From assembly GCA_023133595.1 (NCBI GenBank), contig JAGLWF010000013.1, positions 1-33,581 on the forward strand: a stretch of 33,581 nt of DNA. Direction: 5' to 3'. Source of the DNA: Nanobdellota archaeon. GTDB lineage: Archaea; Nanobdellota; Nanobdellia; Woesearchaeales; WJKV01. Both the position numbers and the translations under genes were made by a program. Of the stretch, positions 3,783 to 26,981 are shown one piece after another (position 1 is the stretch's first letter; the number at the start of each line of letters is the position of its first letter). The notes under the pieces are model-generated. The model was not told the DNA's origin. It saw only the letters and a list, made by a program, of their open reading frames with translations, and made no database searches.

Positions 3783-6700
3783 ATGGTCGATCAAGTCACG
3801 AAAAATCCTGCAATAGACCTTGCACTAGATACAATTTCAATGAAAAAGCTGGCTCTTGTCTTTGTCAACAGCAAACGAAGTGCTGAAAAAACAGCAGAAG
3901 ATATTGCAAAAGCGATAAAGCAGACAAAGCCAGAGTACGAGAAATTATCCTACTCTCTTCTTAATGCAATGTCCCGGCCTACAAAACAGTGCGAACGGTT
4001 GGCTTTTTGCGCGAAAAAAGGTGTTGTGTTCCATCATGCAGGCTTGGTTGCAAAACAACGGGAATTGATTGAAGATTCTTTTCGGAAAGGGGTTGTTAAG
4101 ATTATTTGCTGTACACCTACTTTATGCATTTCCGAAGATACCCAAATTTGGCATGGTACTTCTGAAACCGAAGTTTCTAAGTTTAAGAATTCTAAACCCC
4201 TTTTTGCGCTTTCACAAAATAAATTATTTATGATGAAAGCACAAAAAGTCCAAAAGATCAAGAATTTCTCAAAACTTATTAGAATTTCTTCAGTTTCTGG
4301 CCATTCGATTAAGGTTACCCCCAACCATAAGATGCTTGTCAAGAAAAAAAACAGAAAGCTGATTATTCAAGCAAAAGATATAAAGAAAACCGATAAAATC
4401 GCAACAATTGGAAAGTTGGATCTTTCAAAGACAAGAATTCCTTCAATGAAAGATTTTATTATTGATAATCAGACAGATGTTAGAAACTACAAATTGGGAT
4501 CTAAATTATCTTACTTTATTGGTGCCATGTTAGGAGATGGTTATTCAGGGGCAGAAACAAAGGATAATAAGATTAGATATAAAGGCAGCCCTTCTATTGT
4601 AGGGATAGATGAAGAGATATTTTCACAAGTGGCGGAAGTATGTAACACATTAGGATTGACTTGTAGAAAAAATAAGAATTCCTATGGAACACCTCAATTA
4701 ATCCTTGGAAAAAACAAGTGGTTCAGAGAATTCTTAGTAAGATGCGGTATCGAAAAGAGGGGGCGAAAACACATCTCTAATAAATTGATGCAGATGAATC
4801 TAGAAAATACTGCTTCCTTGATAAAGGGTCTTTTTGATACCGATGGTCATGTGGAGAAACATGTGGGTGTGGGATTCTCAAACATTTCTTTAACTCTAAT
4901 CAAACAACTACAAAAAATGCTTCTCAGATTTGGAATCGTTTCTACAATAAGAACGAAAAAGGCAGGTTTTATGACGATTTTTGAAAAAGAGTACAAAACT
5001 GTTCCGTGCTTTGAATTAAATATTCATCAAAAAAGAAGTACACTTGATTTTTATAGATTCATTGGCTTTAATTTAAAAAGAAAACAAAATGACCTTATTG
5101 ATTTGATTGCTAAAATCAGTTCGAATCTCAATTATGTTTCATGTAGTACTTGCAAATATAAGATTTATAAAGATATTTTTTCAGGAAGAACAAAAACCCA
5201 AAAAACTTGGGGTCAGATCAAATTAAAAGTTATCAAATTGCTCGGAGAACATGAAGAATTAGGTTCAAGAGAATTGAAAAAATTCCTCGGTCCCGAACCA
5301 AAAAAGAAAGATAGAAGATTAAATCATCACTATGAATTAATCAAAAAAATGAGGATTGGAAACCGAAGTAATACAGAATGGCTTTGGAGTCTCAACCCGG
5401 TGGGGAAATGGATTTTTAATAATATTATTAGTAAAAATAAGAAAATCACTGATTTTTTTGGTTTGCGAAAATGTCCCTTATGTGGAAAAGAATTAGATTG
5501 GAAAATCAAAAGAGGATGGAGAGATTCTGATTTTGAAGGGGATATCTTTTGGGATAATATCAGAGAAATAAAAGAAGTTGAATCAGAAGAAAATGTTTAT
5601 GATGTAATCTTATCTAATAAGCCACAAAATGACCATATGTTTGTAGCAAATGGCTTTATTGTTCACAATTCCTATGGTATGAATCTGCCTGCGTTCCGCG
5701 CAATTATCAAAGATATCAGACGGTTTTCTGGCCGCGGTATGAATTATATCCCTGTGATGGAATATCACCAGATCTGCGGCAGGTGCGGTCGTCCTGGCAA
5801 GGAAGAGTTCGGTGAAGCTATTACAATCGTAGGTTCTCCAAAAGAGATGGACAAGATTGTTAAAGATTACATCTTTGGTGATCCAGAACCGATACTTTCT
5901 AAACTCGCAGTCGAACCAGTATTGAGATTTTCATTGCTTTCTCTTATCGCAACAGGATTCACGCGAACACTACAAGAGACATTTGATTTTTTCGAGAAAA
6001 CTTTCTGGGCCTACCAGTTCCAGGACATGGGACGGATAGAGGAAATCATATTACGAATGCTTAACGAACTTCACGAGTTTGATTTCATTACAATAGAAGG
6101 AAAAAAGAAAGAAGATAAAACAAAAGAACAAGACGACTTCATCTCTGCAGATGAGCTTTGCGAAGAAGATGTTGGCATGGATGCAAAACTTGGAGCAACT
6201 TTGCTCGGAAAACGCATTGCAGAACTCTACATTGATCCGTTGACAGCGCACAAATATATTATTGACATGAAAAAAGCTGCTAAGCGAAAAAAAGTTACAG
6301 ATCTTGCCTTGGTTTTTATGATCTGCAGTGCTTTAGAGATCCGGCCGATGCTGAATGTCAAACAATCAGAGTTTGATGAAATGTCTGTGCAGTTATCTTC
6401 AAGCGAACAGGAATTGTTCGAAAAATTACCAGAAATATATGAAGATGAATATTATGAATATCTTTCCCGGTTCAAAACAACACTTCTGCTCAAAGCATGG
6501 ATTGATGAGAAGAGCGAAGATTTCATCCTGAAAGCATTCGGTATCCGGCCTGGCGAGTTGCATGTCAAGAAAAATAATGCTGACTGGCTGATCTATTCTG
6601 CAGATGAATTGTGCAGAATCCTCAATCTACAGCCTTTGAAAAAAGAGTTGAAGCGGTTGAGGATGCGGATCAAGTATGGTGCAAAAAAGGAACTGCTTAC

Positions 6701-6911
6701 ATTGATCCAGCTTGAGAATATCGGTCGTGTCAGGGCCAGAAAATTACATCGTGCAGGTTTTACCGACCTTGGCAAACTGAAGAAAACAGATATTGATACT
6801 TTGTCACGGATCCTTGGAAGGAGGATCGCAATAAGTGTCAAGGAACAACTAGGTCAAAAAGTCAAGGAAAACATAAAAGATTATAAAGACGGACAGCAAC
6901 TGCTTGTTTAA
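3783..6911 (+). CDS. hel308: Hel308-type DNA helicase, RecA2-to-C-terminal part only, with intein
   Basis: Hel308 is a superfamily 2, 3'-5' DNA helicase that remodels stalled forks. The precursor is 1042 residues: extein 1-114, intein 115-629, extein 630-1042. The extein begins inside the RecA1-RecA2 linker and contains RecA2 (VFVNSKRSAEKTA, FHHAGL, ICCTPTL then SYGMNLPAFRA), motif VI QICGRCGRPG (663-672), the winged-helix and ratchet regions, and a C-terminal helix-hairpin-helix (LENIGRVRARKLHRAGF). The RecA1 domain with Walker A and DExH is absent. Two in-frame stops lie between the previous gene and this ATG, and no RecA1 sequence is upstream. It therefore needs a RecA1 partner encoded elsewhere, or it is a remnant. 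The extein of 527 residues is about 200 short of a usual Hel308. The next gene overlaps its stop codon (TAATG). Confidence 0.9.
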   Translation: MVDQVTKNPAIDLALDTISMKKLALVFVNSKRSAEKTAEDIAKAIKQTKPEYEKLSYSLLNAMSRPTKQCERLAFCAKKGVVFHHAGLVAKQRELIEDSFRKGVVKIICCTPTLCISEDTQIWHGTSETEVSKFKNSKPLFALSQNKLFMMKAQKVQKIKNFSKLIRISSVSGHSIKVTPNHKMLVKKKNRKLIIQAKDIKKTDKIATIGKLDLSKTRIPSMKDFIIDNQTDVRNYKLGSKLSYFIGAMLGDGYSGAETKDNKIRYKGSPSIVGIDEEIFSQVAEVCNTLGLTCRKNKNSYGTPQLILGKNKWFREFLVRCGIEKRGRKHISNKLMQMNLENTASLIKGLFDTDGHVEKHVGVGFSNISLTLIKQLQKMLLRFGIVSTIRTKKAGFMTIFEKEYKTVPCFELNIHQKRSTLDFYRFIGFNLKRKQNDLIDLIAKISSNLNYVSCSTCKYKIYKDIFSGRTKTQKTWGQIKLKVIKLLGEHEELGSRELKKFLGPEPKKKDRRLNHHYELIKKMRIGNRSNTEWLWSLNPVGKWIFNNIISKNKKITDFFGLRKCPLCGKELDWKIKRGWRDSDFEGDIFWDNIREIKEVESEENVYDVILSNKPQNDHMFVANGFIVHNSYGMNLPAFRAIIKDIRRFSGRGMNYIPVMEYHQICGRCGRPGKEEFGEAITIVGSPKEMDKIVKDYIFGDPEPILSKLAVEPVLRFSLLSLIATGFTRTLQETFDFFEKTFWAYQFQDMGRIEEIILRMLNELHEFDFITIEGKKKEDKTKEQDDFISADELCEEDVGMDAKLGATLLGKRIAELYIDPLTAHKYIIDMKKAAKRKKVTDLALVFMICSALEIRPMLNVKQSEFDEMSVQLSSSEQELFEKLPEIYEDEYYEYLSRFKTTLLLKAWIDEKSEDFILKAFGIRPGELHVKKNNADWLIYSADELCRILNLQPLKKELKRLRMRIKYGAKKELLTLIQLENIGRVRARKLHRAGFTDLGKLKKTDIDTLSRILGRRIAISVKEQLGQKVKENIKDYKDGQQLLV
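4125..5669 (+). mobile_element. Intein with LAGLIDADG (DOD) homing endonuclease in hel308
   Basis: The intein runs from Cys115 to Asn629 (515 residues), with HN at its end and Ser630 as the +1 extein nucleophile. It interrupts TPTL / SYGMNLPAFR, the conserved motif in RecA2 where Hel308 inteins are known. The N-terminal block is CISEDTQIWHG, with a block-B-like GHSIKVTPNHKML. Two dodecapeptides are visible: YFIGAMLGDGYSG (about 244-256) and LIKGLFDTDGHV (346-357). Their Asp residues are kept, so both splicing and cleavage look possible. Two CxxC pairs (454/457 and 564/567) may bind zinc. The segment is visibly more A-rich than the flanking extein, as expected for an invader. Confidence 0.93.
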
Positions 6912-9530: not shown

Positions 9531-10853
9531 ATGGCAAAAACTCAACGAAAGTCAAGATATCCAATATACCCTCTTGCAGAGGATCCACTAGTCCTTGAGA
9601 CTAGGGGCAAGTTCTTTGACCACTATATCAATCTCATGAACGAAGATGAAAGGAATACAGCAGCGCAAATGAGGATTGCTCCTGTCGAACGAAGGTCATG
9701 GAGAGATATGGAGTGGGGAAGCGGTGAATATAATAATTTCATCATTGAAATACGAAGAAAAGTTCCGTTCATGGGCATAGACTATCTTGGCTACAGGTTC
9801 GAGAATGTTGCTGGCATGGGTGGTTCTGGAAACTCTATCTACGTTGGTGTCAGATCACTCCGGAAATTACAATTTGGATATTTGGCAAAAATGATACAGA
9901 GAAAGCAATTAGATATCTCTGCATTAGATCAGGCTCAAACAGGATATCTAGAAAGAGCATTCAAATCAGAAGGAGAGATGAGAAGATTGCACGAACATCT
10001 GTTAAATTTGCCAGAAGGAGAAAAGAAGATCGCAGCAAAAGTCCTGGTCGAGACTCCTGATGTCCACAGCATCTGCCCGCAAACACTGGCTGGAGCATCA
10101 GTCCTTGAGCCAACACTTGAAGACCTTTCCCCTGAAGTTATAAAAAAAGAAAAGCTGCTTGAAAGATTCTTAAGAGAAGGAGATATATTAAGACATCTAG
10201 ATCATCCAAACATTGTCAAAGTTTACGAATGCAGGGAATTTCGAAGAACAATAGCAGAAGATGAAGTTGTGAAGATGTGGTTCTATACAATGGAATTTCT
10301 TCCGAGAAGTTCGGCAGATACTGTCATGTTTCCAAAAGATGAAGCAATTGAATTAGCAACTACAGTTGGAGAAGCTATTGCTGTAATGCACGAACGCGGA
10401 ATCATCCACAGAGATATCAAGCCGCTGAATATTATGTTCAACAAAGATGATGTTCCAAAAGTGACAGATCCTGGAATCGCAAAAAGAACAAGTGTTGCAG
10501 ATTATGAAAGAACTTGTTTATCAGTGACAGAACAAGGTCAGCCTATTGGCACTCCAAACTACATGTCACCAGAACAGATCAGGGATGCAAAAAATATTGA
10601 TTTCAGAGGCGATATATATTCACTTGGAGTGACGTTATACAGGTGGCTGACTGGAAAACTTCCATATAAAGAGACAAGCTCGGTAATGGATACACTAAAC
10701 ACAATCCTTAGAGGAGATCAGATTCCATTAAGACAATTCTTGCAAAAAAGAAACAGGTCATTAGAACGGGCAGTTGAAAAAGCAATCCAGAAAGATCCAA
10801 ACAAAAGATACCAGACAATGGCTGAATTTGTAGATGCTTTAAAAGCATTATAA
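9531..10853 (+). CDS. Ser/Thr protein kinase with DPG in place of DFG
   Basis: A 440-residue Hanks-type kinase. An N-terminal extension (1-88) precedes the Gly loop GMGGSGNS (95-102). The VAIK lysine is K170 (KIAAK). Between them lies a helical insertion of about 60 residues, far longer than the usual beta2-beta3 turn. HPNIVKVYE, the catalytic loop HRDIKPLN (293-300), GTPNYMSPEQ and DIYSLG are intact. The magnesium-binding DFG reads DPG (TDPGIA, 313-315; codons GAT CCT GGA). Asp is kept, but proline should restrict the usual DFG flip. No transmembrane helix is seen. A TATA box near 9502-9512 suggests a leaderless mRNA. The next gene is a tandem paralogue sharing the insertion and N-terminal features. 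Confidence 0.9.
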   Translation: MAKTQRKSRYPIYPLAEDPLVLETRGKFFDHYINLMNEDERNTAAQMRIAPVERRSWRDMEWGSGEYNNFIIEIRRKVPFMGIDYLGYRFENVAGMGGSGNSIYVGVRSLRKLQFGYLAKMIQRKQLDISALDQAQTGYLERAFKSEGEMRRLHEHLLNLPEGEKKIAAKVLVETPDVHSICPQTLAGASVLEPTLEDLSPEVIKKEKLLERFLREGDILRHLDHPNIVKVYECREFRRTIAEDEVVKMWFYTMEFLPRSSADTVMFPKDEAIELATTVGEAIAVMHERGIIHRDIKPLNIMFNKDDVPKVTDPGIAKRTSVADYERTCLSVTEQGQPIGTPNYMSPEQIRDAKNIDFRGDIYSLGVTLYRWLTGKLPYKETSSVMDTLNTILRGDQIPLRQFLQKRNRSLERAVEKAIQKDPNKRYQTMAEFVDALKAL

Positions 10854-10899: not shown

Positions 10900-12195
10900 A
10901 TGGCAAAACTTGACAGCACTGGATACAAGTATGAAGATCCTCTGATTCTAGCAGCAGAGAATCATTCTCTTAAAAGGTATTTTGACCAGTCAGAAAGAGA
11001 ACATTTAACTTCTGCTCAAAATATGGGAAGAGAAGAAGATTTTGTTGCTCGTACCCCTATTGATCAGATGAATAAACAGGAATTCGGGATTTTTTTAGGG
11101 GAGGTAAAAAATATATATCCCTTATTCAGAGAGAGATTTCCAGTCGCGGGTCATCCTGTAGAATTCATAGGTCCAATCAGCTCTGGGGGATTTAGCACGA
11201 TTTATCTTGGGGTTAAGTCATTAAGAGAATATCAACAAAAAGATTTTAGTAATGCTTTTCGGAAATATGCTGGTGTTCTTAGAGAGCAGCATCAAAAAAA
11301 GATTGAAGATATTATAAATGCAGTAAAAAGATCTCAAGATCCAAAATTGAAGCTTGTCCATTTATTATCAAAACTTCCATTACATCATAGAGGTGTTGCT
11401 GCAAAGGTGTTGGATACAGATTATAACGCTGGAAGCCCGACCCATCTCAGATTTAAGGACGAGATCAAGATTTTGACCAAGATAAAACATCCAAATATTG
11501 TGCAGATCATTGAAGCGCCGAAAAACTACACTTGTGACAATTTTCAAACTATATTTCTTTATGTCATGGAATATCTTCCTGATGGTTTCGATCGTCAAAA
11601 AGCACATCCGATTAGTGTTGTCATCCCTGTCATACATGCTGTTGCAAAAGCATTAGAAGCAATGCATAATGCCGGAGTGCTACACAGAGATGTCAAACCA
11701 CCAAATATCCGGGTAAGTGCAGATGGTGTGGTGAAACTTACTGATTTCGGCCTGATCAAAAAAACAGAGACCTACCAAACTCAAGCAGAGCGTAGTATAA
11801 CACCAAAAACCCAAAGCGGACAGGTTATTGGAAGCCTTGGTTTTATGTCCCCTGAGCAGGCAAGCGGAAAAGAAATGGATCTTAGAACAGACATATATTC
11901 ACTAGGAACCACTATGTGGACCCTTCTCACTGGTGAAATGCCTTATGATTTTGAAACTGGTGATGATACTATTGTACGCTTATTTAAGACAGTGAGCATA
12001 AAACATCAGAAAAGTCTTGAGGTCTATGCAGATAGAATATTTGTGGATGCAGGCCAAAAGATAAAACCTAAAAAATCTATGCTCAAAGCTTTGAAATGGA
12101 TCCATAGGAGTAGTACAGCCAAAGAACCTAAAAAGAGATACTCAGAAATGGCCCTATTCATATCAGACCTTGAAACCATTCTAAACGAGCTTTAA
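10900..12195 (+). CDS. Ser/Thr protein kinase, tandem paralogue
   Basis: A 431-residue kinase related to the preceding one. It shares an N-terminal extension with YEDPLIL (EDPLVL in the neighbour) and a helical insertion of about 60 residues between the Gly loop (ISSGGFSTIYLG, 93-104) and the VAIK lysine (K169, VAAK). Catalytic residues are complete: likely alphaC Glu188, HRDVKPPN (262-269), DFG (282-284), GSLGFMSPEQ and DIYSLG. It is therefore predicted active, unlike the DPG neighbour whose state is uncertain. It has no membrane helix. A TATA-like tttttatatt and a GAGG ribosome site precede the start, so the two kinases can be transcribed separately. Confidence 0.9.
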   Translation: MAKLDSTGYKYEDPLILAAENHSLKRYFDQSEREHLTSAQNMGREEDFVARTPIDQMNKQEFGIFLGEVKNIYPLFRERFPVAGHPVEFIGPISSGGFSTIYLGVKSLREYQQKDFSNAFRKYAGVLREQHQKKIEDIINAVKRSQDPKLKLVHLLSKLPLHHRGVAAKVLDTDYNAGSPTHLRFKDEIKILTKIKHPNIVQIIEAPKNYTCDNFQTIFLYVMEYLPDGFDRQKAHPISVVIPVIHAVAKALEAMHNAGVLHRDVKPPNIRVSADGVVKLTDFGLIKKTETYQTQAERSITPKTQSGQVIGSLGFMSPEQASGKEMDLRTDIYSLGTTMWTLLTGEMPYDFETGDDTIVRLFKTVSIKHQKSLEVYADRIFVDAGQKIKPKKSMLKALKWIHRSSTAKEPKKRYSEMALFISDLETILNEL

Positions 12196-15310: not shown

Positions 15311-18300
15311 ATGGCAAATATGAAACTTAAAGATTACTTAGATGGCATTCAGACACCTAAAAATATGAAGGATTTGATGAATCATCCAGATATTCAGATG
15401 GGCATAGTCAAAAGTGCTAAAATTGCACGAAAAGTTCTTGAGCATCCAAATGTTCAATCTATAATTGTAGCAGATTTACAAGGCCAGAAACGACTTGTCA
15501 AAGCTCTTATCCAAAGATTTCCTATTACAAAAGCGATCATTGAAGAATTATTCACTAAAGGCGGTAAAAAGAAAATAGAGACTATTGGCTGTATGGACCT
15601 TGAAGCGCGTATAGGTGAAGGTGGCCTTGGGGTTGTCAGACTAGGAACTTTAAATGAAGGTGTTCTAGGAACATATACTCAGATCAAACTTGCAGAGATG
15701 TGGGCACAGATTTCTGAATGTGCTGGATTCTATCTTCCTGTTAAAACAAATGGAACCGGAAATGGCGAAGAAAAAACAAAAAGAGAAAAGAACAGAGCGA
15801 TTATTGAAGAAATAAGAGATAGTTATAGCAGAGAAGAATTATTTGAAGCTATTGCTGATGAGATGCGTGACAAAAAATATGCTGTTAAATTCTGCAATAT
15901 GAGTAGTCTTAGTTCTTATAGTGCAAATGATGTTGAGGGTGCACGAAGATTCAGACACGAGTTTGAGCTTACAAACAGTATTAATTTAAGTAATGATGAA
16001 GAAACCGGACACGAAAATATTGTTAAAGTTATGTTCGAAGAAGAGGAATCAAGTATAAAAAATCCTGAAGCAAGAGACCGATCAAGACAAGGAAAACTCT
16101 TCTATGTCATGGAATTATTAGAAGGCGGAGACATTTATGAAAAGACTCAAGAAATTGGGCTATGGGGTTTTGATGAAGCACTTGAAGTTATAATGCAAGT
16201 TGCAGATGCACTTGCATATGCTCATGCTCAAGGAATCATCCACAGGGATATCAAACCACAAAATATAATGTTTGACAAAGATGGAAAAGTAAAAGTTACA
16301 GATTTTGGTCTTGGAAAAGATACTACTGACCCAAATCGTACAAATTTGTCTCAAACTGGTGTTGCTATGGGTACTCCAAAATATATGCCCTTGGAACAAG
16401 CCAGAGACGCAAAGCACGCTACTGCAGCTGCTGATATTTATTCTTTAGGTCTGACACTATACGAAATGATCACAGGCGAAATGCCGTTCAAGCTTGACAA
16501 AGCAGGTAATCTTACGCAAATTGTAGAAAGATTACGGAAATATGAAGGACGAGAAGCTGAATTCATCCCATATCCAGATGCAAAACCAGGATCGCAGGAA
16601 GATGCATTGAATAAGGTTTTGCTTAAAGCTCTGCAGATTGATATCATGGAAAATGGCAGGGTCAAGAAAAATCACAGGAGATACTCATCTATGGAAAATT
16701 TCGCAGAAGATCTTGCAAAAGTTTGGACATGGGAAAATGTTTCAGCATCTGAACGATCAATTGATATGCGAAAGATCGAGAAAGATCAAGCAGAAAGAAA
16801 AAAGGCGGCTTTCTGGAAAAAATGGAAACTTCCAATTGTTGCTGGCGGAATAACTGTTTTAGCAGGTCTTGGGATTGCTGGTGCACTTCTTTTTGGTGGA
16901 GGAGATACTTACAGAGATGAAATCAAAGCAACACAAGAGACTTATACTACAAGATTTGCTGCTGCTAAGAAAAGCAAGGACGAGAAAAGATTCTCTGATT
17001 GGTTAGGAAAATTAGAAAAATATAATGATAAGAAAAAATCACCAGAACTTGCTAAGTTTTTAACAAGACATAGAAGAGATTACTCTTCAATGGTCGAATC
17101 TCGATTAGAAAAAGAAATCAAGGCAGATTTTGCAAGAGCAGAAAACTTAGAGAGCCAAGGATTACTAGTCGAAGCACATACAACATATGCTAAAGTTGCT
17201 TCTGCATGGGAAAGCAGAGAAAAAGATGTTAAGAAGAAAAAAGTAAAGAAAGTTTATGAGAGGAATGCAGGAAAATCAGAAGATATCAGAAAGAAAATCT
17301 GGAAACTTGATGGAAAAGATCCAGCATGGAAAACACTACAATTCTGCGTAGAAGATATCAAGAAGCGAGGAGATTATCAGAAAGTTAATGCTGACGAATA
17401 TCATAATATTGCTGTATTGTTAGCAAAAAAGGTTGTAGAACCTCTAGCGCAAGGAGATACTGACAAGGTTCCTGTTGCTGTGAAGAAAGACGGTACATGG
17501 TGGACAGAAAGACCAAGTAAATTAGAATGGGAGACACGAAGAGCTCCAGGAGATTTTGTCGCAACACTATGGGAATGCTACCAGATGTTCAAAGGAACAG
17601 AAGAAGAGCAGAAATGGCTGATGTACGCGCGAAAATGGATGAATGTATTCCAACAAATCAATGAAGACAATGTAGACGCATTTGTCGGAAAAACACTTCT
17701 AGACAATCATTTTGTAGCAATGGAAATAGATCCAGCACGAAGCGAAACCTACAAACGAGAAATCAAACGACTTTGTGATCTGATTGTGAAGAAGAAGTGG
17801 AATGAAGAATTAGGATTCATCACACACTATGTTGCAGATGGAGAAGATGATAAATCAAGAAAATTGTATTCAAACGTTGCGCAGGATGTAGTTGCATTAC
17901 TGCGAGCACACCAACTATTTGGAAATCAAGAATACAAAGATAAAGCTGAAAAAACAATAGCAAATCTTCTAAAATACATCAAAGCAAGTAAGAATCCAAA
18001 ATCAGCACAGATATATAATTTTATCGACCGTACTGAAGGAAAAACAGATGTGCATTATCTATTAGGATCTATAGAGATGTATATTCAATATGCAGAGGCA
18101 CTGCATGAAATACATAGATTAACAAATAATAGTCAGTGTAAAAAGTTTGCAACACAAATCCATAATTGGCTATGTGATAGTGTTGATATGAATGATATCC
18201 CTTATTTTGGGATATTCGCACATGTTGTTCCAGAAAATTCTGGGAGTAAAGATGGGGAATCTCATAGAAAACACGGCAGTAAGAAAACACATAGACTACT

Positions 18301-18568
18301 CCCAGAATTTATTTTGAGCAGGCAAACATTTGGAGATAATAAAGAGAAAGACTCCGAAGCAAGATACACCCTAGTTCGGACACTACAAACAGATAAAAAT
18401 TGGCAAGGAGTATCTGATTCAGATACAGCAAATATTGCTGAAGTCTGTCTTCCAGGAAATATTATCAAGGAAGTGTTGAATCTAGGAATACCAAGTGATG
18501 TTCCGTCTTCAAATACCACAAATGTTTATGAAATGGCTGCTTATTTCAAAGCATTAAGAAAAAAATAA
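15311..18568 (+). CDS. Transmembrane Ser/Thr kinase with large helical C-terminal domain
   Basis: A 1085-residue three-part protein. Residues 1-95 are an N-terminal extension. The kinase domain (about 96-475) has Gly loop GEGGLGVVRLG (102-112), an insertion of about 80 residues, VAIK lysine K193 (YAVK), HRDIKPQN (311-318), DFG (331-333), GTPKYMPLEQ and DIYSLG, so it looks active. A single membrane helix follows (about 507-530), then about 550 residues probably outside the cell. That part begins with a charged coiled region (540-660) and continues as repeated helical hairpins with WECYQMF, GSIEMYIQYAEALHEIH and YEMAAYFKAL, reminiscent of (alpha/alpha) toroid folds of glycosidases and epimerases. 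The layout suggests a receptor kinase sensing a sugar or polymer; that is inference. Copy 3 of the 54-bp cassette is its promoter. Confidence 0.85.
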   Translation: MANMKLKDYLDGIQTPKNMKDLMNHPDIQMGIVKSAKIARKVLEHPNVQSIIVADLQGQKRLVKALIQRFPITKAIIEELFTKGGKKKIETIGCMDLEARIGEGGLGVVRLGTLNEGVLGTYTQIKLAEMWAQISECAGFYLPVKTNGTGNGEEKTKREKNRAIIEEIRDSYSREELFEAIADEMRDKKYAVKFCNMSSLSSYSANDVEGARRFRHEFELTNSINLSNDEETGHENIVKVMFEEEESSIKNPEARDRSRQGKLFYVMELLEGGDIYEKTQEIGLWGFDEALEVIMQVADALAYAHAQGIIHRDIKPQNIMFDKDGKVKVTDFGLGKDTTDPNRTNLSQTGVAMGTPKYMPLEQARDAKHATAAADIYSLGLTLYEMITGEMPFKLDKAGNLTQIVERLRKYEGREAEFIPYPDAKPGSQEDALNKVLLKALQIDIMENGRVKKNHRRYSSMENFAEDLAKVWTWENVSASERSIDMRKIEKDQAERKKAAFWKKWKLPIVAGGITVLAGLGIAGALLFGGGDTYRDEIKATQETYTTRFAAAKKSKDEKRFSDWLGKLEKYNDKKKSPELAKFLTRHRRDYSSMVESRLEKEIKADFARAENLESQGLLVEAHTTYAKVASAWESREKDVKKKKVKKVYERNAGKSEDIRKKIWKLDGKDPAWKTLQFCVEDIKKRGDYQKVNADEYHNIAVLLAKKVVEPLAQGDTDKVPVAVKKDGTWWTERPSKLEWETRRAPGDFVATLWECYQMFKGTEEEQKWLMYARKWMNVFQQINEDNVDAFVGKTLLDNHFVAMEIDPARSETYKREIKRLCDLIVKKKWNEELGFITHYVADGEDDKSRKLYSNVAQDVVALLRAHQLFGNQEYKDKAEKTIANLLKYIKASKNPKSAQIYNFIDRTEGKTDVHYLLGSIEMYIQYAEALHEIHRLTNNSQCKKFATQIHNWLCDSVDMNDIPYFGIFAHVVPENSGSKDGESHRKHGSKKTHRLLPEFILSRQTFGDNKEKDSEARYTLVRTLQTDKNWQGVSDSDTANIAEVCLPGNIIKEVLNLGIPSDVPSSNTTNVYEMAAYFKALRKK

Positions 18569-18573
18569 AGAAA

Positions 18574-18894
18574 TTATTTTTTCTTTCTTCGAATATAGAA
18601 GTAACTAAGTGCGCCTAGTGCACCCATTGCTACTATTCCAAATGTAGAAAATTCTGGACTTGTGCCTATTTCTCCTCCACCACCAGGAGGGGTTGGATCA
18701 TCAGAAGGCCCAGGTACAGGCGGATCTGAAATTGTGCCTCCAGGAGTAACAGGTTTCTCAGGTTCTTGTTCTCCAATGCCGCCAGCTTCACCGCCGCCAT
18801 GTTCGCCAGTTCCAATTTCAATCCCTGCACTAACCATCCCTGCAAGTCCTAATACTAATAGAGAAATAATCAAAAGTATGCAAACCTTCTTCAT
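18574..18894 (-). CDS. Small Gly/Pro-rich secreted protein with PEF-CTERM-like sorting tail
   Basis: I start at MKKVC (18894), which follows GAGGTGAT, rather than an in-frame ATG at 18915; this gives 106 residues. An N-terminal signal peptide ends near MVSA. The mature part is low-complexity Gly/Pro/Glu (several PG, GGG and DP runs). The C-terminus has PEFSTFG, a hydrophobic helix and RRKKK. That three-part tail is the form recognised by archaeosortases in PEF-CTERM proteins. It is probably a surface-anchored spacer or cell-wall protein. A promoter (AACATTTATATACC on the minus strand) lies upstream, so it is transcribed apart from the RiPP operon above it. Its signal-peptide region is duplicated near 25316-25377. 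Confidence 0.8.
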   Translation of the reverse strand: MKKVCILLIISLLVLGLAGMVSAGIEIGTGEHGGGEAGGIGEQEPEKPVTPGGTISDPPVPGPSDDPTPPGGGGEIGTSPEFSTFGIVAMGALGALSYFYIRRKKK

Positions 18895-19029
18895 AAATAT
18901 CACCTCTAAACCCATATATTGAATTCAGGTATATAAATGTTTTTGTTTGTTTGTATAACCCCAGAATCCTCATAGTCACTTTATTATAATTGGATTAAAG
19001 AATCCATTATCAGCCAATTGATTTTGAGT
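18833..19029. repeat. Segmental duplication, copy A (partner 25316-25512)
   Basis: About 195 bases covering the signal-peptide codons of the PEF-CTERM gene, its promoter and the last codons of the HExxH gene at 18976 are matched, with scattered mismatches, by 25316-25512 on the same strand. Copy A has both genes intact. Confidence 0.85.
18928..18941 (-). promoter_or_regulatory. TATA promoter of the PEF-CTERM gene (AACATTTATATACC)
   Basis: Read on the minus strand, AACATTTATATACC lies about 35 bases before the start codon, leaving a short leader with GAGGTGAT. The same 14-base box occurs at 25411 (same orientation), 23659 and 29700. Confidence 0.6.
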
Positions 19030-19815
19030 CAAGGTATAATAAAGTTCTAATTTTGATGCAAATTCATCATCAATTGTTTTAAGAAGCTCTATCATCTTTC
19101 TATCAATATCATCCTTCTCCAAGCCTTGGCTTTCTAGATTCGTATATTGTTCTATGAAATAATCTTCTATTGTCATGATATGACCGTCGTACATAACCTT
19201 TATCTTACCGAATTCTTCATTGCTAACCACTCTGTGTGGAAAAAATTTCCTCATAAGAGGATTGTTTTGTATAATTGGGGCATAGATTTCCTTCAGCCCA
19301 TCAAGGGAGCGTGGATTGACTCCAATGATTTTACTTAAATCCGTTTCTTTGCCAGGAAACAATCTTGCCAATTTTTTAAGATATAGCAAATGTGACAGTT
19401 CATGAACACATACCCGCATAATTTGTGCAGGCTCCACATGACGATTTTTTACCACATTTGCAAGAATTGACAAATTAAAGTAATCTTTTCCATATGGTGA
19501 CATAGGCAGCATTGTTGGATATACATGATAAGCGCTATCAAATTTTTCATTGAGAATAGACTCCATAATAATCCAGAGATTTGGATCAATATTATCAACA
19601 ATAACTCTTATTTCCCTGATTACAGCATCGATTTCAGAACTATGCTTATGATATAATTTTTTCACAAAGTCTTTCATCTGGTCTCTACTATCCACATTTT
19701 CAAGAGCACCATATGATCTAAGCATGAAAGCTTTTAGTGATTTTCTATCACTATCAAAGAAGAAGTGCATAAATTTCTTAATATCTAAATCCAAGTTTTT
19801 TTCGACTTTTAGCAT
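18976..19815 (-). CDS. HExxH putative metallopeptidase of the RiPP locus
   Basis: A protein of 279 residues from the ATG at 19815 (a GTG at 19863 in the same frame would add 16 residues and overlap the upstream gene). The only clear motif is VHELSHLLYL (His138, Glu139, His142), the zinc-binding helix of gluzincin-type peptidases; a possible third ligand lies in IEDYFIEQYTNLE about 70 residues later. There is no signal peptide, so it acts inside the cell. It begins 16 bases after the preceding HExxH gene and is probably the last gene of the precursor/radical SAM operon. Leader removal is the simplest role. Peptide beta-hydroxylation by an alpha-ketoglutarate HExxH enzyme is an alternative. A C-terminal remnant of a second copy lies at 25458-25514. 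Confidence 0.7.
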   Translation of the reverse strand: MLKVEKNLDLDIKKFMHFFFDSDRKSLKAFMLRSYGALENVDSRDQMKDFVKKLYHKHSSEIDAVIREIRVIVDNIDPNLWIIMESILNEKFDSAYHVYPTMLPMSPYGKDYFNLSILANVVKNRHVEPAQIMRVCVHELSHLLYLKKLARLFPGKETDLSKIIGVNPRSLDGLKEIYAPIIQNNPLMRKFFPHRVVSNEEFGKIKVMYDGHIMTIEDYFIEQYTNLESQGLEKDDIDRKMIELLKTIDDEFASKLELYYTLTQNQLADNGFFNPIIIK

Positions 19816-19831
19816 GATTATAGGTATATAT

Positions 19832-20560
19832 TCATTCTTTAAAAAAGTTGTGTGTGAGACCACAAATATATTTCAATCTCATCTCAGGGGAGTTGATATA
19901 TTCTAATTTATTTTTAAAATATATCGCCTTAGAGATATAAATATATTTCGTCTTATTTGTCTCATCTGGACTTACCTGCAAATCATCAAGCCTCCCATTT
20001 ACCCAATGCTCCAAATAAGTAACCAGCCCCTCGTCATATTCCCAAAAATCAGGATTTTGCTTTGCAAAAGATATATTGTTTAAATTTAATAAGACATGGA
20101 TAATTTCATGAAGTAAGATACTTTTCAAAGCCTGCTTCTTTCCATCATAATCGTTTTTCTTTAGTTTTGTAATGACAACAAGATAATTTCCCTCGCATTC
20201 TTTTTGTAATTCTGCAAACAATTTCAGCAATTCATGTTTTAAATCCTCATTTTTTATTTTCTTAATCATATGGATGCCTTCAAGAATTCCTCGTTTGCTT
20301 GTTACAGAGCCTCCAATATTAGATAGTTGTTTTTGAAAATAATCACCTTTCATAAAATCCTCAATAGTATCAGGCACTAAATCAGGATTATTCTGATGAA
20401 AAGGAGAACAGTCTGGTGTTCGACAACAGCTTATGAATTTTCGCAGTAAGATATGTCTTTGAGAGATTTCTATGATTTTAAATTTATCCATATCAAGCTC
20501 TAAATCTAAATACCCAGTAATTTTCTTTATTTTTGGAAAAAATACTTCTTGGTATTTCAT
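19832..20560 (-). CDS. HExxH/DEG putative zinc metallopeptidase of the RiPP locus
   Basis: A 242-residue protein. LLHEIIHVLLN (His151, Glu152, His155) and a downstream DEGLVTYLEHW (Glu177 and Glu184) give the HExxH...E arrangement of peptidase-MA-like gluzincins. A small Cys cluster (SCCRTPDC, 44-51) comes before it. No signal peptide. Its ATG overlaps the stop of the radical SAM gene (ATGA, 4 bases), which indicates translational coupling and so a role in the same pathway, most simply cleavage of the modified precursor. A close paralogue (26268-26981) keeps the motif but sits without a radical SAM gene. The protein is not obviously related to the 18976 gene beyond the HExxH helix. Confidence 0.78.
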   Translation of the reverse strand: MKYQEVFFPKIKKITGYLDLELDMDKFKIIEISQRHILLRKFISCCRTPDCSPFHQNNPDLVPDTIEDFMKGDYFQKQLSNIGGSVTSKRGILEGIHMIKKIKNEDLKHELLKLFAELQKECEGNYLVVITKLKKNDYDGKKQALKSILLHEIIHVLLNLNNISFAKQNPDFWEYDEGLVTYLEHWVNGRLDDLQVSPDETNKTKYIYISKAIYFKNKLEYINSPEMRLKYICGLTHNFFKE

Positions 20561-21954
20561 ATTAAAGCTAAAACTCCTTCAGGATCTTTATATAGTTCCC
20601 AAAATAGATTTTTATACATTATTTTATTATATGTACAATATTCGAATCTGTTAAATAAATTACCACTATTGTGTGCTTTATTTGCACATCCCCCACCACA
20701 AAATTGTTTGATTTCACAAGAGGAACATTCACCGATCGTCTCTGTTGTTCGGCTTCGAAGAGTTTCTAGAGTTTCAGAATCATCAAAGATTTCTTCAAAT
20801 GATGAAATTTCCAAAACATTTCCGATTACAAGGTCATTTTTGCCTATCATCTCATGGCAAGGATATATTTTTCCATCATAACCAACTCCCAACATAGAAA
20901 GTCCAGCGCCACAAGGATTACGTTGACACATATAATTTCTATCTCGAGAGATAATATTCTTAATCATATTAGCAAGATGATTCAATTTAAGACGATTATC
21001 CGGATGTGCTTTATTATGATTAATTATGCGATGCATCAGGGCAATTTCTTTTTCTGCGTATGCTTCTTGATGAGCCTGATTAGATTCTTCCTTAATTGCA
21101 CGTCCTTGATTGAAGTACGGATTCAATTTCATCGAAGGTATTGCATATTCAATCATAAAATCAGATATTCCATCAAGAACATTAATATCACTTACAACAC
21201 AAAGAACTCCAAAAGAGAGTTCGTGTTTTTTTAATAATCCTAGTTTCTCTGTTACGACATCAAATGATCCTTTACCTTTCCGAAATATTCTGTTTTGATC
21301 ATGATACTTTTTGGGGCCATCGAGCGAAGTTCCAATATGGATCTTATTTGTCTTGAAAAATTTAACCATGTCTTCTGTTAATTCAACCAGATTAGTCTGC
21401 AAACTGAATCGGACAGAAATACCTCTCTTTTCCGCCAGACCGTATCCATAATCGACTGCATTTCTAACTCGATCGTAAGCTAATAATGGCTCCCCCCCAT
21501 GAAATTGAAATTCTATTCTATCACGCGGAGGACAAATACCCAAAGAAAGTGTTTTTTTCAATATCTCTTCTGATATTTTGGCACCTGACCCTGCATCGGT
21601 ATAACAATATTTACATCTAAGATTACATGCATTAGTTACTTGAAAGATAATTAACTGCAAGCTTTTTTCTAAATTACATTGAATTATTGATTTCGATTGA
21701 TTTTTTTGACCATTTACTTCAATAAGTCCCGCATCAAAGAGAATAGTCAGGGTTTGCTCAATATTTCCTCCATCTTTTGATCTAAGTTCCCCAATTGTTC
21801 TAGATTGTGTGAGCTGATTTAAAATGCGTTTAGTATCTTGATCAATTACCGCCCAATTTGCATTATATGGTTCTATAATCAACGACATCCCATTTTGTTC
21901 TTCAGAATATAAATTTGAAACTTGCTTTACCCTATCTTGAAGAGATAATACCAT
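20557..21954 (-). CDS. Radical SAM/SPASM peptide-modifying enzyme with N-terminal RRE-like region
   Basis: A 465-residue RiPP maturase. Residues about 15-82 resemble a PqqD-type precursor-recognition element (WAVIDQDTKRILNQL...TLTILFDAGLIEV). The radical SAM core begins with CNLRCKYC (Cys110, Cys114, Cys117), binding the [4Fe-4S] cluster and SAM, and has FHGGEPLL (152-159). The C-terminal SPASM domain has Cys343, 348, 366, 410, 413, 419, 423 and 440 in the canonical spacing (GKIYPCHE, CSSCEIKQFCGGGC), enough for two auxiliary clusters. Such enzymes crosslink or thioether-bridge peptides. The gene starts 17 bases after a Cys-free, Trp-rich peptide gene, so thioethers are excluded and aromatic C-C or C-N crosslinks are expected. 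Its stop is fused to the next start (ATGA). Confidence 0.93.
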   Translation of the reverse strand: MVLSLQDRVKQVSNLYSEEQNGMSLIIEPYNANWAVIDQDTKRILNQLTQSRTIGELRSKDGGNIEQTLTILFDAGLIEVNGQKNQSKSIIQCNLEKSLQLIIFQVTNACNLRCKYCYTDAGSGAKISEEILKKTLSLGICPPRDRIEFQFHGGEPLLAYDRVRNAVDYGYGLAEKRGISVRFSLQTNLVELTEDMVKFFKTNKIHIGTSLDGPKKYHDQNRIFRKGKGSFDVVTEKLGLLKKHELSFGVLCVVSDINVLDGISDFMIEYAIPSMKLNPYFNQGRAIKEESNQAHQEAYAEKEIALMHRIINHNKAHPDNRLKLNHLANMIKNIISRDRNYMCQRNPCGAGLSMLGVGYDGKIYPCHEMIGKNDLVIGNVLEISSFEEIFDDSETLETLRSRTTETIGECSSCEIKQFCGGGCANKAHNSGNLFNRFEYCTYNKIMYKNLFWELYKDPEGVLALI

Positions 21955-21971
21955 TCTAAAAAAAGAAAAAA

Positions 21972-22163
21972 TTATACTCCATCATCCCAATTGGCCCATT
22001 GGTCATTCCATCCGCCATCTGACCAGTCATCCCAACCATCACTCCATTCAGAAGACTTTGGTCTTTTAGAGTTCAATATCTTTTCATCAATCCCACTAGA
22101 ACGAATCTCTTTGCCTTGTTGTGCGATATAGAAAATTTTTGGTGATTCATAATCTTGTCCCAT
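21972..22163 (-). CDS. Candidate RiPP precursor peptide with six W-x-D/N motifs
   Basis: A 63-residue peptide preceded by a strong ribosome site (GGAGGT, 8-9 bases before the ATG). The N-terminal 39 residues are mixed and polar with KIFYIAQQGKEI (9-20), a plausible leader strand. The last 24 residues are a low-complexity core: W40-S-D, W44-D-D, W47-S-D, W52-N-D, W56-A-N and W59-D-D, ending GV. All six Trp are followed two residues later by Asp or Asn, the spacing used in 3-residue cyclophane (triceptide) RiPPs. The peptide has no Cys, Ser/Thr are few in the core, and there is no signal peptide. The radical SAM/SPASM gene follows after 17 bases. No database name is claimed; the precursor role is inferred from composition, motif spacing and context. 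Confidence 0.87.
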   Translation of the reverse strand: MGQDYESPKIFYIAQQGKEIRSSGIDEKILNSKRPKSSEWSDGWDDWSDGGWNDQWANWDDGV

Positions 22164-22250: not shown

Positions 22251-22323
22251 TTCCGACTTCCGGAAAGCATTATAATCCATATAGACTTAGAAACGTTTAA
22301 AACTGACGCATAGAGATTCTATT

Positions 22324-22345
22324 GAAGTATATACATATATACTTC
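22324..22345. promoter_or_regulatory. Palindromic operator-like site upstream of the RiPP precursor
   Basis: GAAGTATATA-CA-TATATACTTC: two perfect 10-base arms around a 2-base centre, followed by TGTCAAGCAAA. The same block recurs at 23618, upstream of the ELTH protein gene. It suits a dimeric repressor or activator site. Confidence 0.7.
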
Positions 22346-22408
22346 TGTCAAGCAAAATACGAGTGTTTAGGATATAATTTTTTTTCTTGCTCTGCAAAGC
22401 TTTTGTTT

Positions 22409-22915: not shown

Positions 22916-23542
22916 TCAAGATAGATTCAAAGAATAACTTGCACTTCGAGCAGCCAATTGAACTAGTGAAGCAACTTCACAAAAATCTTTAAACGCATCT
23001 GCTGTGGTAACAAAAGGGTATCGCATATATATCAGTTCATCTATTTTTTGAATATCATCCAAAATTTTGTTCATTTGACAACTTTTTTCCTCAATAATTT
23101 TTCCATAGTTGTGATTTTCCTGCAGTAAGCCTCTGTATTTTAGACCAACCACATTATTTTCCCACATCCACACATGAGTTAATTCACAGCAAAGGTTCCC
23201 AATCAGCTTGGCTCGATAAAAGAGATTATCATTACCTTCATCTACAGGTACTTCTATTTTGTAGGCTCGTTTTCCACAGGAATCAATTAATTCAGTGGTC
23301 CCCCCAACTACGGCGCCTTCAGATCTCACCGAATGTAAATATAACTCTGCACAAGGGGTCTCAGAAATTCCCCATACGTTAAGAGCGGATCCCTCATATT
23401 TTTTATCAAACTCTTCTCTGGATAAAAATTCCAGATTAATTCTTTGAGTAGGAATATCTAATCCAAATTTCTTTTTTAGTATTTTGAGACTATCTTCATA
23501 AATACAATACTGTGTTGGATTGCCAATATGAGCTAAATTCAT
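22916..23542 (-). CDS. ELTH-motif protein, metallopeptidase-like with first His replaced by Cys
   Basis: A 208-residue protein with GNLCCELTHVWMWENN (about 116-131). This reads like the gluzincin helix HELTHVW but with Cys where the first zinc ligand His should be. Cys can bind zinc, so it is either a variant metalloenzyme or a non-catalytic homologue. The N-terminal part is mixed alpha/beta and the C-terminal part helical. No signal peptide. The ribosome site AGGAGGT is strong and lies within an inverted repeat that could hide it. The promoter region carries the same palindrome as that of the RiPP precursor, which ties it to the RiPP locus. Confidence 0.7.
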   Translation of the reverse strand: MNLAHIGNPTQYCIYEDSLKILKKKFGLDIPTQRINLEFLSREEFDKKYEGSALNVWGISETPCAELYLHSVRSEGAVVGGTTELIDSCGKRAYKIEVPVDEGNDNLFYRAKLIGNLCCELTHVWMWENNVVGLKYRGLLQENHNYGKIIEEKSCQMNKILDDIQKIDELIYMRYPFVTTADAFKDFCEVASLVQLAARSASYSLNLS

Positions 23543-25269: not shown

Positions 25270-25377
25270 TCAATAGCCACCAACAACTGGTGCTCCAGTA
25301 ACCGCATCTCCACTCACCATCCCTGCGAGTCCTAATACTAATAGAGAAATAATCAAAAGTATGCAAACCTTCTTCAT
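25270..25377 (-). CDS. 35-residue secreted peptide, truncated copy of the PEF-CTERM protein start
   Basis: The first 22 residues (MKKVCILLIISLLVLGLAGM, then VS) are identical to the signal peptide of the protein at 18574-18894. The frame then reads GDAVTGAPVVGGY and stops. Promoter (AACATTTATATACC) and ribosome site (GAGGTGAT) are intact. It may be a decayed duplicate or a real tiny exported peptide. Both the low-complexity region and the sorting tail are gone. Confidence 0.55.
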   Translation of the reverse strand: MKKVCILLIISLLVLGLAGMVSGDAVTGAPVVGGY

Positions 25378-25512
25378 AATATCACCTCTAAGGCAGATAT
25401 TGCTGTTTTGGTATATAAATGTTTTTGTTTATTTGTATAACCCAAGAATCCTCATAGTCACGTAATCATAATCGGATTAAAGAATCCGTTCTCAACCAAG
25501 TGACTTTGAGTT
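25316..25512. repeat. Segmental duplication, copy B (partner 18833-19029)
   Basis: Matches copy A through the signal-peptide codons, promoter, intergenic gap and last codons of the HExxH gene, after which similarity stops. The flanking genes are damaged here, so copy B is the derived one. Confidence 0.85.
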
Positions 25513-25514
25513 CT
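25458..25514 (-). pseudogene. C-terminal remnant of the 18976-type HExxH gene
   Basis: On the minus strand the codons read RTQSHLVENGFFNPIMIT then stop. This aligns with the C-terminus LTQNQLADNGFFNPIIIK of the intact gene. Nothing upstream continues the frame, and a methyltransferase gene occupies the place where the rest would be. Confidence 0.8.
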
Positions 25515-25547
25515 CTATTCTGATATTTATTGAGAAGAAAGATACAA

Positions 25548-25589
25548 TACACAAAGTTCTTGATTTTAGATATTTTAAATTTCATTTTC
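25548..25589. repeat. 42-bp repeat, copy 1 (partner 27936-27977)
   Basis: Forty-one of 42 bases are shared with 27936-27977. In both places the element spans the 3' end of a minus-strand gene: the stop codon of the methyltransferase here and of a small hypothetical gene there. Content is very AT-rich. Confidence 0.8.
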
Positions 25590-26268
25590 GATTTTGTCCA
25601 ACTATGACTAATTCTTCAGCAAAGATCGAAGAAAAAGCTTTAATGATAAAATATTTCTTAATCAATCTTTTTAGATAAAATGGAGTTGGAAGATGCACAT
25701 AGACCTTCACATCATTATCATTATAACTTCTATCCAAAAACTCGCCATTTCTTTGCTTAAAGATATGTAATAAGTGCTCTATCCAAAAAGAAAACCTGTT
25801 ACCAGGATATAGAGCATTATTCGATGTTAAAACACATAATCCTTCAGGTTTCAGAACTCTTTGAACTTCTTTTAATACTTTCAATCTGTTTTTATGAGTT
25901 TGAATTTGGTTTATGAAACATTTGAGCATAAGAACAGCATCAAATGAATTTTTATAAAACTTTAAATTTTTTGCATTCATCTGGATACATTTCACTTTAA
26001 CTTGATTTTCTTTGCTAAATTTGTTTGTAAATTTTACCATTTCAGGGGAAAAGTCGATAGCAGTAACCGTATAACCCATTTTTGTTAACGGTACCACCTC
26101 TCTTCCGCATCCGCAACCAATAACAAGAAGTGTCTTAGCATTCTTTAGATATTTTTTAATTACCTTTTTTTCGAACTCTTTTAACCCCTTTCTTGCTTGT
26201 TCAAAATACAACTTAGAAAAGTCTCTATCAGAGTATCTTTTAAATATTATTTTTTCAGCTGATTTCAT
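25582..26268 (-). CDS. Class I SAM-dependent methyltransferase
   Basis: A 228-residue enzyme with the class I methyltransferase fold: motif I LLVIGCGCGREVVPL (about 48-62), the acidic end of strand 2 in VTAIDFSPEMV, a DAVLMLKCFINQI strand 4 and LKPEGLCVLTSNN. It resembles small-molecule methyltransferases of the UbiE/Methyltransf_11-25 type. Substrate unknown. Its start overlaps the stop of the upstream HExxH paralogue (TAATG), so the two are translationally coupled. It occupies the position where the duplicated block should carry a second 18976-type gene, suggesting replacement. Confidence 0.85.
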   Translation of the reverse strand: MKSAEKIIFKRYSDRDFSKLYFEQARKGLKEFEKKVIKKYLKNAKTLLVIGCGCGREVVPLTKMGYTVTAIDFSPEMVKFTNKFSKENQVKVKCIQMNAKNLKFYKNSFDAVLMLKCFINQIQTHKNRLKVLKEVQRVLKPEGLCVLTSNNALYPGNRFSFWIEHLLHIFKQRNGEFLDRSYNDNDVKVYVHLPTPFYLKRLIKKYFIIKAFSSIFAEELVIVGQNRK

Positions 26269-26981
26269 TATACCCTTAATTGCTGAATAGCTTTCAATCT
26301 CATTTTTGAATATTTTATGTTTTGCAGCTTATTTTTAAAAAAGATTGCCTTAGAAGTATAAATATATTTCGTCTTATTTGTCTCATCTGGACTTATTTGC
26401 AAATCATCAAGCCTACCATTCACCCAATGCTCCAAATAAGTGACTAATCCTTCATCATATTCCCAAAAATCCGGATTTTGCTTTGCAAAAGAGAGATTAT
26501 TTGAATTTAATAAGATATGGATGACTTCATGAAGCAATATATTTTTCAAAGCCTGCTTCTTTTCATCATAATCGTTTTTCTTTAGTTTCGTAATTACAAC
26601 AAGATAATCATCTTCGCATTCTATTTGTAATTCTGCAAATAATTTCAGTAATTCTTGTTTTAAATCCTCATTTTTGATTTTCTGAATTATCTGAATACCT
26701 TCAAGAATTCCTCGTTTGCTTGTTACAGAGCCTCCAATATCAGATAATTTTTTTTGAAAATAATCCCCCTTCATAAAATCCTCAATAGTATCAGGAACTA
26801 AATCAGGATTATTCTGATGAAAAGGAGAACAGTCTGGTGTTCGACAACAGCTTATGAATTTTCGCAGTAAGATATGTCTTTGAGATATCTCGACAAATTT
26901 AAATTTAGATATATTAGAATCTAGATCTAAATACTCGGCAATTTTCTTTATTTTTGGAAAAAATATCTCTTGGTAGTTCAT
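26268..26981 (-). CDS. HExxH/DEG putative zinc metallopeptidase, paralogue of 19832-20560
   Basis: A 237-residue paralogue, near-identical over most of its length to the protein at 19832-20560. It keeps SCCRTPDCS, LLHEVIHILLN and DEGLVTYLEHW. Only the last 25 residues or so diverge, ending KAIQQLRV instead of LTHNFFKE. It has the metal ligands and so should be active. Here the upstream neighbour is a histidine phosphatase (4-base overlap) rather than a radical SAM enzyme, and the downstream neighbour is a methyltransferase. Whether it still serves the RiPP pathway in trans is open. Confidence 0.78.
   Translation of the reverse strand: MNYQEIFFPKIKKIAEYLDLDSNISKFKFVEISQRHILLRKFISCCRTPDCSPFHQNNPDLVPDTIEDFMKGDYFQKKLSDIGGSVTSKRGILEGIQIIQKIKNEDLKQELLKLFAELQIECEDDYLVVITKLKKNDYDEKKQALKNILLHEVIHILLNSNNLSFAKQNPDFWEYDEGLVTYLEHWVNGRLDDLQISPDETNKTKYIYTSKAIFFKNKLQNIKYSKMRLKAIQQLRV

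Follow-up and report, generated by a model that had tools for sequence, protein, structure and literature searches.

A Trp-Asp/Asn repeat peptide beside a radical SAM/SPASM gene: a candidate locus for multiple cyclophane formation in a Nanobdellota archaeon

Introduction

Does an archaeon with a small genome produce a ribosomally synthesized and post-translationally modified peptide (RiPP) in which tryptophans are crosslinked in series along a single chain? This question is raised by contig JAGLWF010000013.1 of a Nanobdellota archaeon (assembly GCA_023133595.1), a stretch of 33,581 nucleotides referred to here as the window. Specifically, the minus strand of the window carries a gene for a 63-residue, Trp-rich peptide (21972..22163), followed by genes for a radical S-adenosylmethionine (SAM)/SPASM protein of 465 residues (20557..21954) and for two proteins bearing an HExxH motif, HE1 (19832..20560) and HE2 (18976..19815). 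An original prediction, drawn from the nucleotide sequence, held that the locus produces a triceptide, that is, a peptide with up to six Trp-Asp/Asn cyclophanes. The features on which it was built, including the absence of Cys from the peptide, six W-x-D/N motifs, a 17-base gap, an ATGA overlap and the two HExxH genes, were all located in place. The host genome is archaeal: it encodes ribosomal protein L21e, which among 14 control genomes was confined to the four archaea and which was used for domain assignment because an archaeal 16S rRNA gene is absent from the assembly.

A repeated Trp-x-Asp/Asn core next to a complete maturase gene

Within the precursor, residues 1-38 approximately constitute the leader and residues 39-63 the core, most of which (21975..22046) consists of two 12-residue units, WSDGWDDWSDGG (22011-22046) and WNDQWANWDDGV (21975-22010), that together hold the motifs W40SD, W44DD, W47SD, W52ND, W56AN and W59DD. 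Asp or Asn is found two positions after Trp in all six motifs (D, D, D, D, N, D), this being the sole position neighboring Trp that is invariant in kind, and the position three residues after Trp is never acidic. When the core is shuffled with its composition kept, Asp or Asn at +2 in six of six motifs has a probability of 4.1e-4, and the same test with a wider class of +2 residues (D/E/N/S) gives P = 0.014. Random open reading frames (ORFs) of like composition (n = 56,638) reach a maximum of two W-x-[DN] motifs per 24 residues, and across 2.2 Mb of fetched loci the precursor is the only ORF in which six such motifs fall within 24 residues. The two instances of the more specific pattern W-x-[DN]-x-W-x-[DN]-W-x-[DN] in this genome both lie in the precursor core. 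A further ten were found across 370 other phylum genomes, and none of those ten loci contains a radical SAM motif.

The adjacent enzyme is complete. Pfam models PF04055 and PF13186 match above their cut-offs, the CX3CX2C motif occupies residues 110-117, and seven cysteines are available to the SPASM domain (348, 366, 410, 413, 419, 423 and 440). In the AlphaFold2 (AF2) model, which has a predicted local distance difference test (pLDDT) score of 86.9, residues 1-87 (21694..21954, minus strand) form strands 8-11, 16-20, 23-28 and 33-38 followed by helices 39-47, 54-61 and 65-74, the layout of a RiPP recognition element (RRE). Foldseek searches with this model returned CteB as the best match (460 aligned columns, E 1.8e-24), followed by anSME, TigE and ChlB; CteB is itself RRE-bearing, and ChlB is a cyclophane synthase. 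No Pfam PqqD match was found in the maturase. The RRE-like N-terminus anticipated in the original prediction is supported by predicted structure, through the AF2 layout and the CteB match rather than by Pfam, and the modeled domain would bind the leader.

Taken together, these data make a RiPP precursor and its radical SAM maturase very likely: a W-x-[DN] repeat core of a kind not expected by chance directly precedes a radical SAM/SPASM gene that is complete, the N-terminus of the enzyme is modeled as RRE-like and the genes are arranged as an operon. The maturase gene is the only radical SAM gene on the contig, and no exporter gene was found next to the peptide locus.

Distant relatives and comparison with known systems

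Relatives were sought in 371 genomes of the phylum and 353 of the order, two sets that partly overlap. The best maturase identities in these genomes were 31-33%, single-protein scans of genome contigs and viral contigs gave no match, and alignment-based scans recovered only distant radical SAM/SPASM relatives. At four loci (L032, L034, L035 and L036), three of them in the same order and all in the same phylum, such distant relatives adjoin peptides rich in H/Y-x-D/E, in which enrichment at +2 is supported by shuffling (P 0.001, 0.018 and 0.00025 for the first three, and 0 of 20,000 shuffles for L036). These loci resemble the present one in the acid at +2 and the adjacent radical SAM/SPASM gene, but their maturases are DynA-like, approximately 365-380 residues long and devoid of an RRE, and their peptides rely mainly on His and Tyr and carry another leader, with a common motif approximating NP-x-x-R/S-x-x-L. 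Relatives in the archaeal order also encode many His-Xaa-Ser (Hxs) systems with SHGSHGSH peptides (L038, L046, L051 and L052). The Hxs maturase HxsB is the top NCBIfam model for the present enzyme, and the two systems share a repeated aromatic-x-polar motif and a maturase extended on the N-terminal side of its radical SAM domain; however, the HxsB score is below cut-off, no HxsC lies beside the maturase, and Trp-Asp/Asn takes the place of His-Ser.

Among bacteria, the longest match is a plasmid gene of Paracoccus yeei (28.6% identity over 93% of the maturase, residues 21-451), whose product exceeds the cut-off of no named family. It adjoins a HVNSGPPGFVNGGGHANFDP-repeat peptide and a TIGR04267 protein of the alpha-ketoglutarate (aKG)-HExxH type, and the same type of repeat peptide was found on an Acidobacteria contig; in both cases the peptide stands beside an N-terminally extended radical SAM gene (L053:4357-7422 and L054:5279-8470, respectively). 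This 'HVN' family resembles the present locus in its extended maturase, repeated [HF]-x-N peptide and HExxH neighbor, but differs in a long precursor with 20-residue repeats and in the TIGR04267 identity of its HExxH protein, and the tree does not join the two. The theme common to the surroundings of these maturases is an i,i+2 aromatic-x-polar spacing.

Closest in presumed chemistry are the cyanobacterial OscB/GrrM triceptides, which likewise combine a radical SAM/SPASM maturase with W-x-N/D motifs. Unlike these systems, the present locus has an archaeal host, an RRE-bearing maturase and a two-unit, all-Trp core, and the tree does not place the enzymes together. PapB ranthipeptide maturases and CteB offer a further parallel in that PapB is the second-best NCBIfam model and CteB, the best fold match, shares the RRE, radical SAM and SPASM architecture. 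Their thioether chemistry, however, requires Cys; the precursor provides no Cys donor for a ranthipeptide or sactipeptide, and the exclusion of thioether products in the original prediction stands. A defense-system reading was also considered and set aside, the similarity being only to generic viperin-like radical SAM proteins.

No archaeal triceptide was found in the literature searched, which covered few subscription papers. The proposal that the locus is unusual for an archaeon is only partly borne out: with many Hxs systems and several H/Y-x-D/E peptide-radical SAM pairs among relatives in its order, the archaeal setting is less isolated than first held. The locus and the H/Y-x-D/E loci of its relatives suggest that peptides crosslinked at aromatic-x-acid sites are more widespread among archaea with small genomes than has been recorded.

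Proposed product and alternative explanations

By analogy with bacterial OscB, the product is proposed to contain i,i+2 Trp-Asp/Asn cyclophanes, up to six in number, a reading to which we assign a probability of roughly 0.6. In OscB systems Trp C7 is joined to the C-beta of Asn or Asp, and in YxdB systems Tyr C3 is joined to the C-beta of Asp (PMC11002830). In the proposed pathway, the RRE would bind the leader, in which PKIFYIAQQ might serve as an edge strand, and the core would enter the radical SAM site, where the 5'-deoxyadenosyl radical would take a hydrogen from the C-beta of the i+2 Asp or Asn. The resulting carbon radical would attack the indole of Trp i, and the electron would pass to the SPASM clusters. 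Every motif could in this way yield a three-residue cyclophane with the loss of 2 Da, to a maximum of 12 Da for all six, giving a layout of two tricyclic units. A substrate with six sites, all of them Trp, served by a single enzyme would make it easy to study in what sequence, and how many times, cyclophanes can be formed on one chain.

Several observations weigh against this reading. The maturase scores far under the cut-off of every NCBIfam equivalog model, and its two best models, HxsB (188.4 of 370 bits required) and PapB (188 of 340), are not established W-x-D enzymes. Scores are lower still against the models of characterized 3-residue cyclophane-forming enzymes (3-CyFE), namely GrrM/OscB (111.8 of 310), YhhB (101.5 of 445), AmcB (93.6 of 425) and FxsB (92.4 of 370). 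In a tree of 73 rows the maturase branches deeply and alone, without a supported sister; a grouping with the archaeal H/Y-x-D group in a tree of 23 rows (support 91/79) was lost in the larger tree and was discarded. The precursor matches no family model, and no close relative was found in the phylum or order genomes, genome contigs, viral contigs or plasmids, the last searched with the precursor by tblastn. Similar-looking peptides at L047 and L100 show no significant enrichment at +2. Moreover, the W-x-D motif alone proves nothing, because some phage proteins with no relation to the precursor (L274 and L283) contain clusters of it as well; of 65 W-x-[DN] stretches in viral contigs, not one was accompanied by a radical SAM/SPASM ORF. 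The triceptide assignment is supported by the core, in which the aromatic-x-D/N motif is complete in six of six cases, and not by the enzyme, which belongs to no characterized 3-CyFE family.

It is on the enzyme's isolation that the chief alternative draws: a genuine RiPP pair performing some other chemistry, such as Trp-Trp crosslinks, crosslinks of Trp to another residue, or epimerization or decarboxylation of Asp. Related radical SAM/SPASM enzymes perform C-C, C-O and C-S chemistry, and a W-x-x-W pair, its tryptophans three apart, is present in both units (W44-W47 and W56-W59). Such chemistry is nevertheless rather unlikely, given that the one invariant Trp neighbor is the Asp or Asn at +2 and that distant relatives keep an aromatic-x-acid spacing with His or Tyr replacing Trp, in line with the i,i+2 logic first proposed. 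Far less probable is the explanation that the locus encodes no RiPP at all, in which case the maturase would modify some larger protein, and the ORF rich in Trp and Asp would be a chance or structural peptide. The occurrence of W-x-D clusters in unrelated proteins and the failure to find a relative that keeps the peptide frame would fit such an explanation, but the strong Shine-Dalgarno sequence of the precursor, the 17-nt spacing, the two-unit core with its far lower random expectation and the RRE of the maturase model speak against it. Trp-Asp/Asn cyclophane formation thus remains the preferred reading. Its boldest extension, in which the maturase would found an archaeal class of multi-site cyclophane synthases of its own, making two tricyclic blocks, with non-aKG zincins of undescribed fold as its peptidases, is speculative and, on balance, doubtful.

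The HExxH genes

HE1, a zincin-like protein of 242 residues with the motif HEIIH, overlaps the maturase gene by ATGA at the junction ATATGAAA. HE2, with the motif HELSH, more likely starts from the ATG at 19815 than from the GTG at 19863 that opens the longest frame. In Pfam and NCBIfam model searches neither protein matched a family above cut-off, and neither matched TIGR04267 at E 0.1. The HE1 AF2 model is confident (pLDDT 86.6), with no fold match in PDB or BFVD. Seven homologues of HE1 occur elsewhere, none of them neighboring a relative of the maturase, and HE2 has weak matches in 8 genomes.

These genes are tied to the system only weakly, by adjacency, and HE1 also occurs without a radical SAM gene: a paralogue 84% identical to it lies approximately 6.4 kb away (26268-26981), between phosphatase and methyltransferase genes. 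This paralogue belongs to a segmental duplication (18825-20560 and 25308-26981, copies 6.4-6.5 kb apart) comprising HE1, the HE2 tail and a surface-protein signal peptide; at 25308-26981 the body of HE2 has given way to a methyltransferase, and the gene for the surface protein is truncated. HE1 thus cannot be regarded as peculiar to this peptide. The chance that both genes are passengers of a duplicated zincin block, unrelated to maturation, falls only slightly short of even, and such a reading is compatible with cyclophane formation; it gains from the placement of the HE1 copy and from homologues that lack a related maturase, and loses from the overlap with the maturase gene, which suggests coupled translation. 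Alternatively, HE1, HE2 or both may remove the leader, a role suggested by adjacency only and the weakest step of the proposed pathway.

A different role, also compatible with cyclophane formation, would be beta-hydroxylation of Asp by aKG-dependent enzymes once the cyclophanes are formed, as in the ChlB/ChlH pair. An HExxH protein beside a cyclophane maturase has precedent in the aKG-HExxH enzymes described for a RiPP with cyclophanes, whose Asp and His they hydroxylate (PMC12636437), and the P. yeei relative pairs its radical SAM gene with a TIGR04267 protein. Hydroxylation is nevertheless improbable here: in addition to the missing TIGR04267 matches and unmatched HE1 fold, the profiles of HE1 and the P. 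yeei protein overlap in just 17 residues at HExxH, and a reaction requiring O2 would be unlikely where the neighboring enzyme is O2-sensitive and the host is an archaeon with a small genome.

Expression signals

The precursor has the best Shine-Dalgarno sequence of the operon (GGAGGT, 8 nt before the ATG), and none is visible before the maturase gene. The 17 bases separating the precursor stop from the maturase start (21955..21971, minus strand) contain a T6CT7 tract, the sole run with 13 T in 14 positions on either strand of the window. Since U-tracts terminate archaeal transcription, this tract, a probable partial terminator, may lower maturase expression and so keep precursor levels above those of the maturase.

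Upstream of the precursor on the same strand, pattern counts and alignment delineate a candidate operator or leader (22287..22344) made up of the palindrome AAGTATATATGTATATACTT and then AGAATCTCTATGCGTCAGTTTTAAACGTTTCTAA. The palindrome occurs at two places in the window (4 strand matches) versus 0.09 expected, and a 34-nt block upstream of the precursor has three mismatch-free copies in the genome. The palindrome and block recur together at two other sites (G000:C4:1582-1638 and G000:C23:109998-110054), each preceding one of a pair of paralogous, uncharacterized genes (approximately 300 residues), of which one is full length at about 300 codons; the palindrome and block may thus constitute a shared regulatory leader. 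The adjoining A-rich region (22345..22385, minus strand), containing TTATATCC, is the likely promoter, and a similar block of 41-59 nt is found upstream of the gene at 22916-23542. That gene encodes an uncharacterized protein with CCELTHVW, a degenerate HExxH, and its promoter and palindrome resemble those of the precursor.

Other genes in the window and genome

Beyond HE2, a small secreted protein (18574-18915) displays a PEF motif, a hydrophobic stretch and an RRKKK C-terminus. Elsewhere in the genome an exosortase/archaeosortase family protein (L245:22-909) exceeds the TIGR04178 cut-off, and the PGF-CTERM family is absent. Three Ser/Thr protein kinase-like genes with HRDIKP or HRDVKP motifs lie close together (9531-10853, 10900-12195 and 15311-18568) in this small archaeal genome, and a helicase-like gene (3783-6911) carries an apparent intein inserted after CCTPTL.

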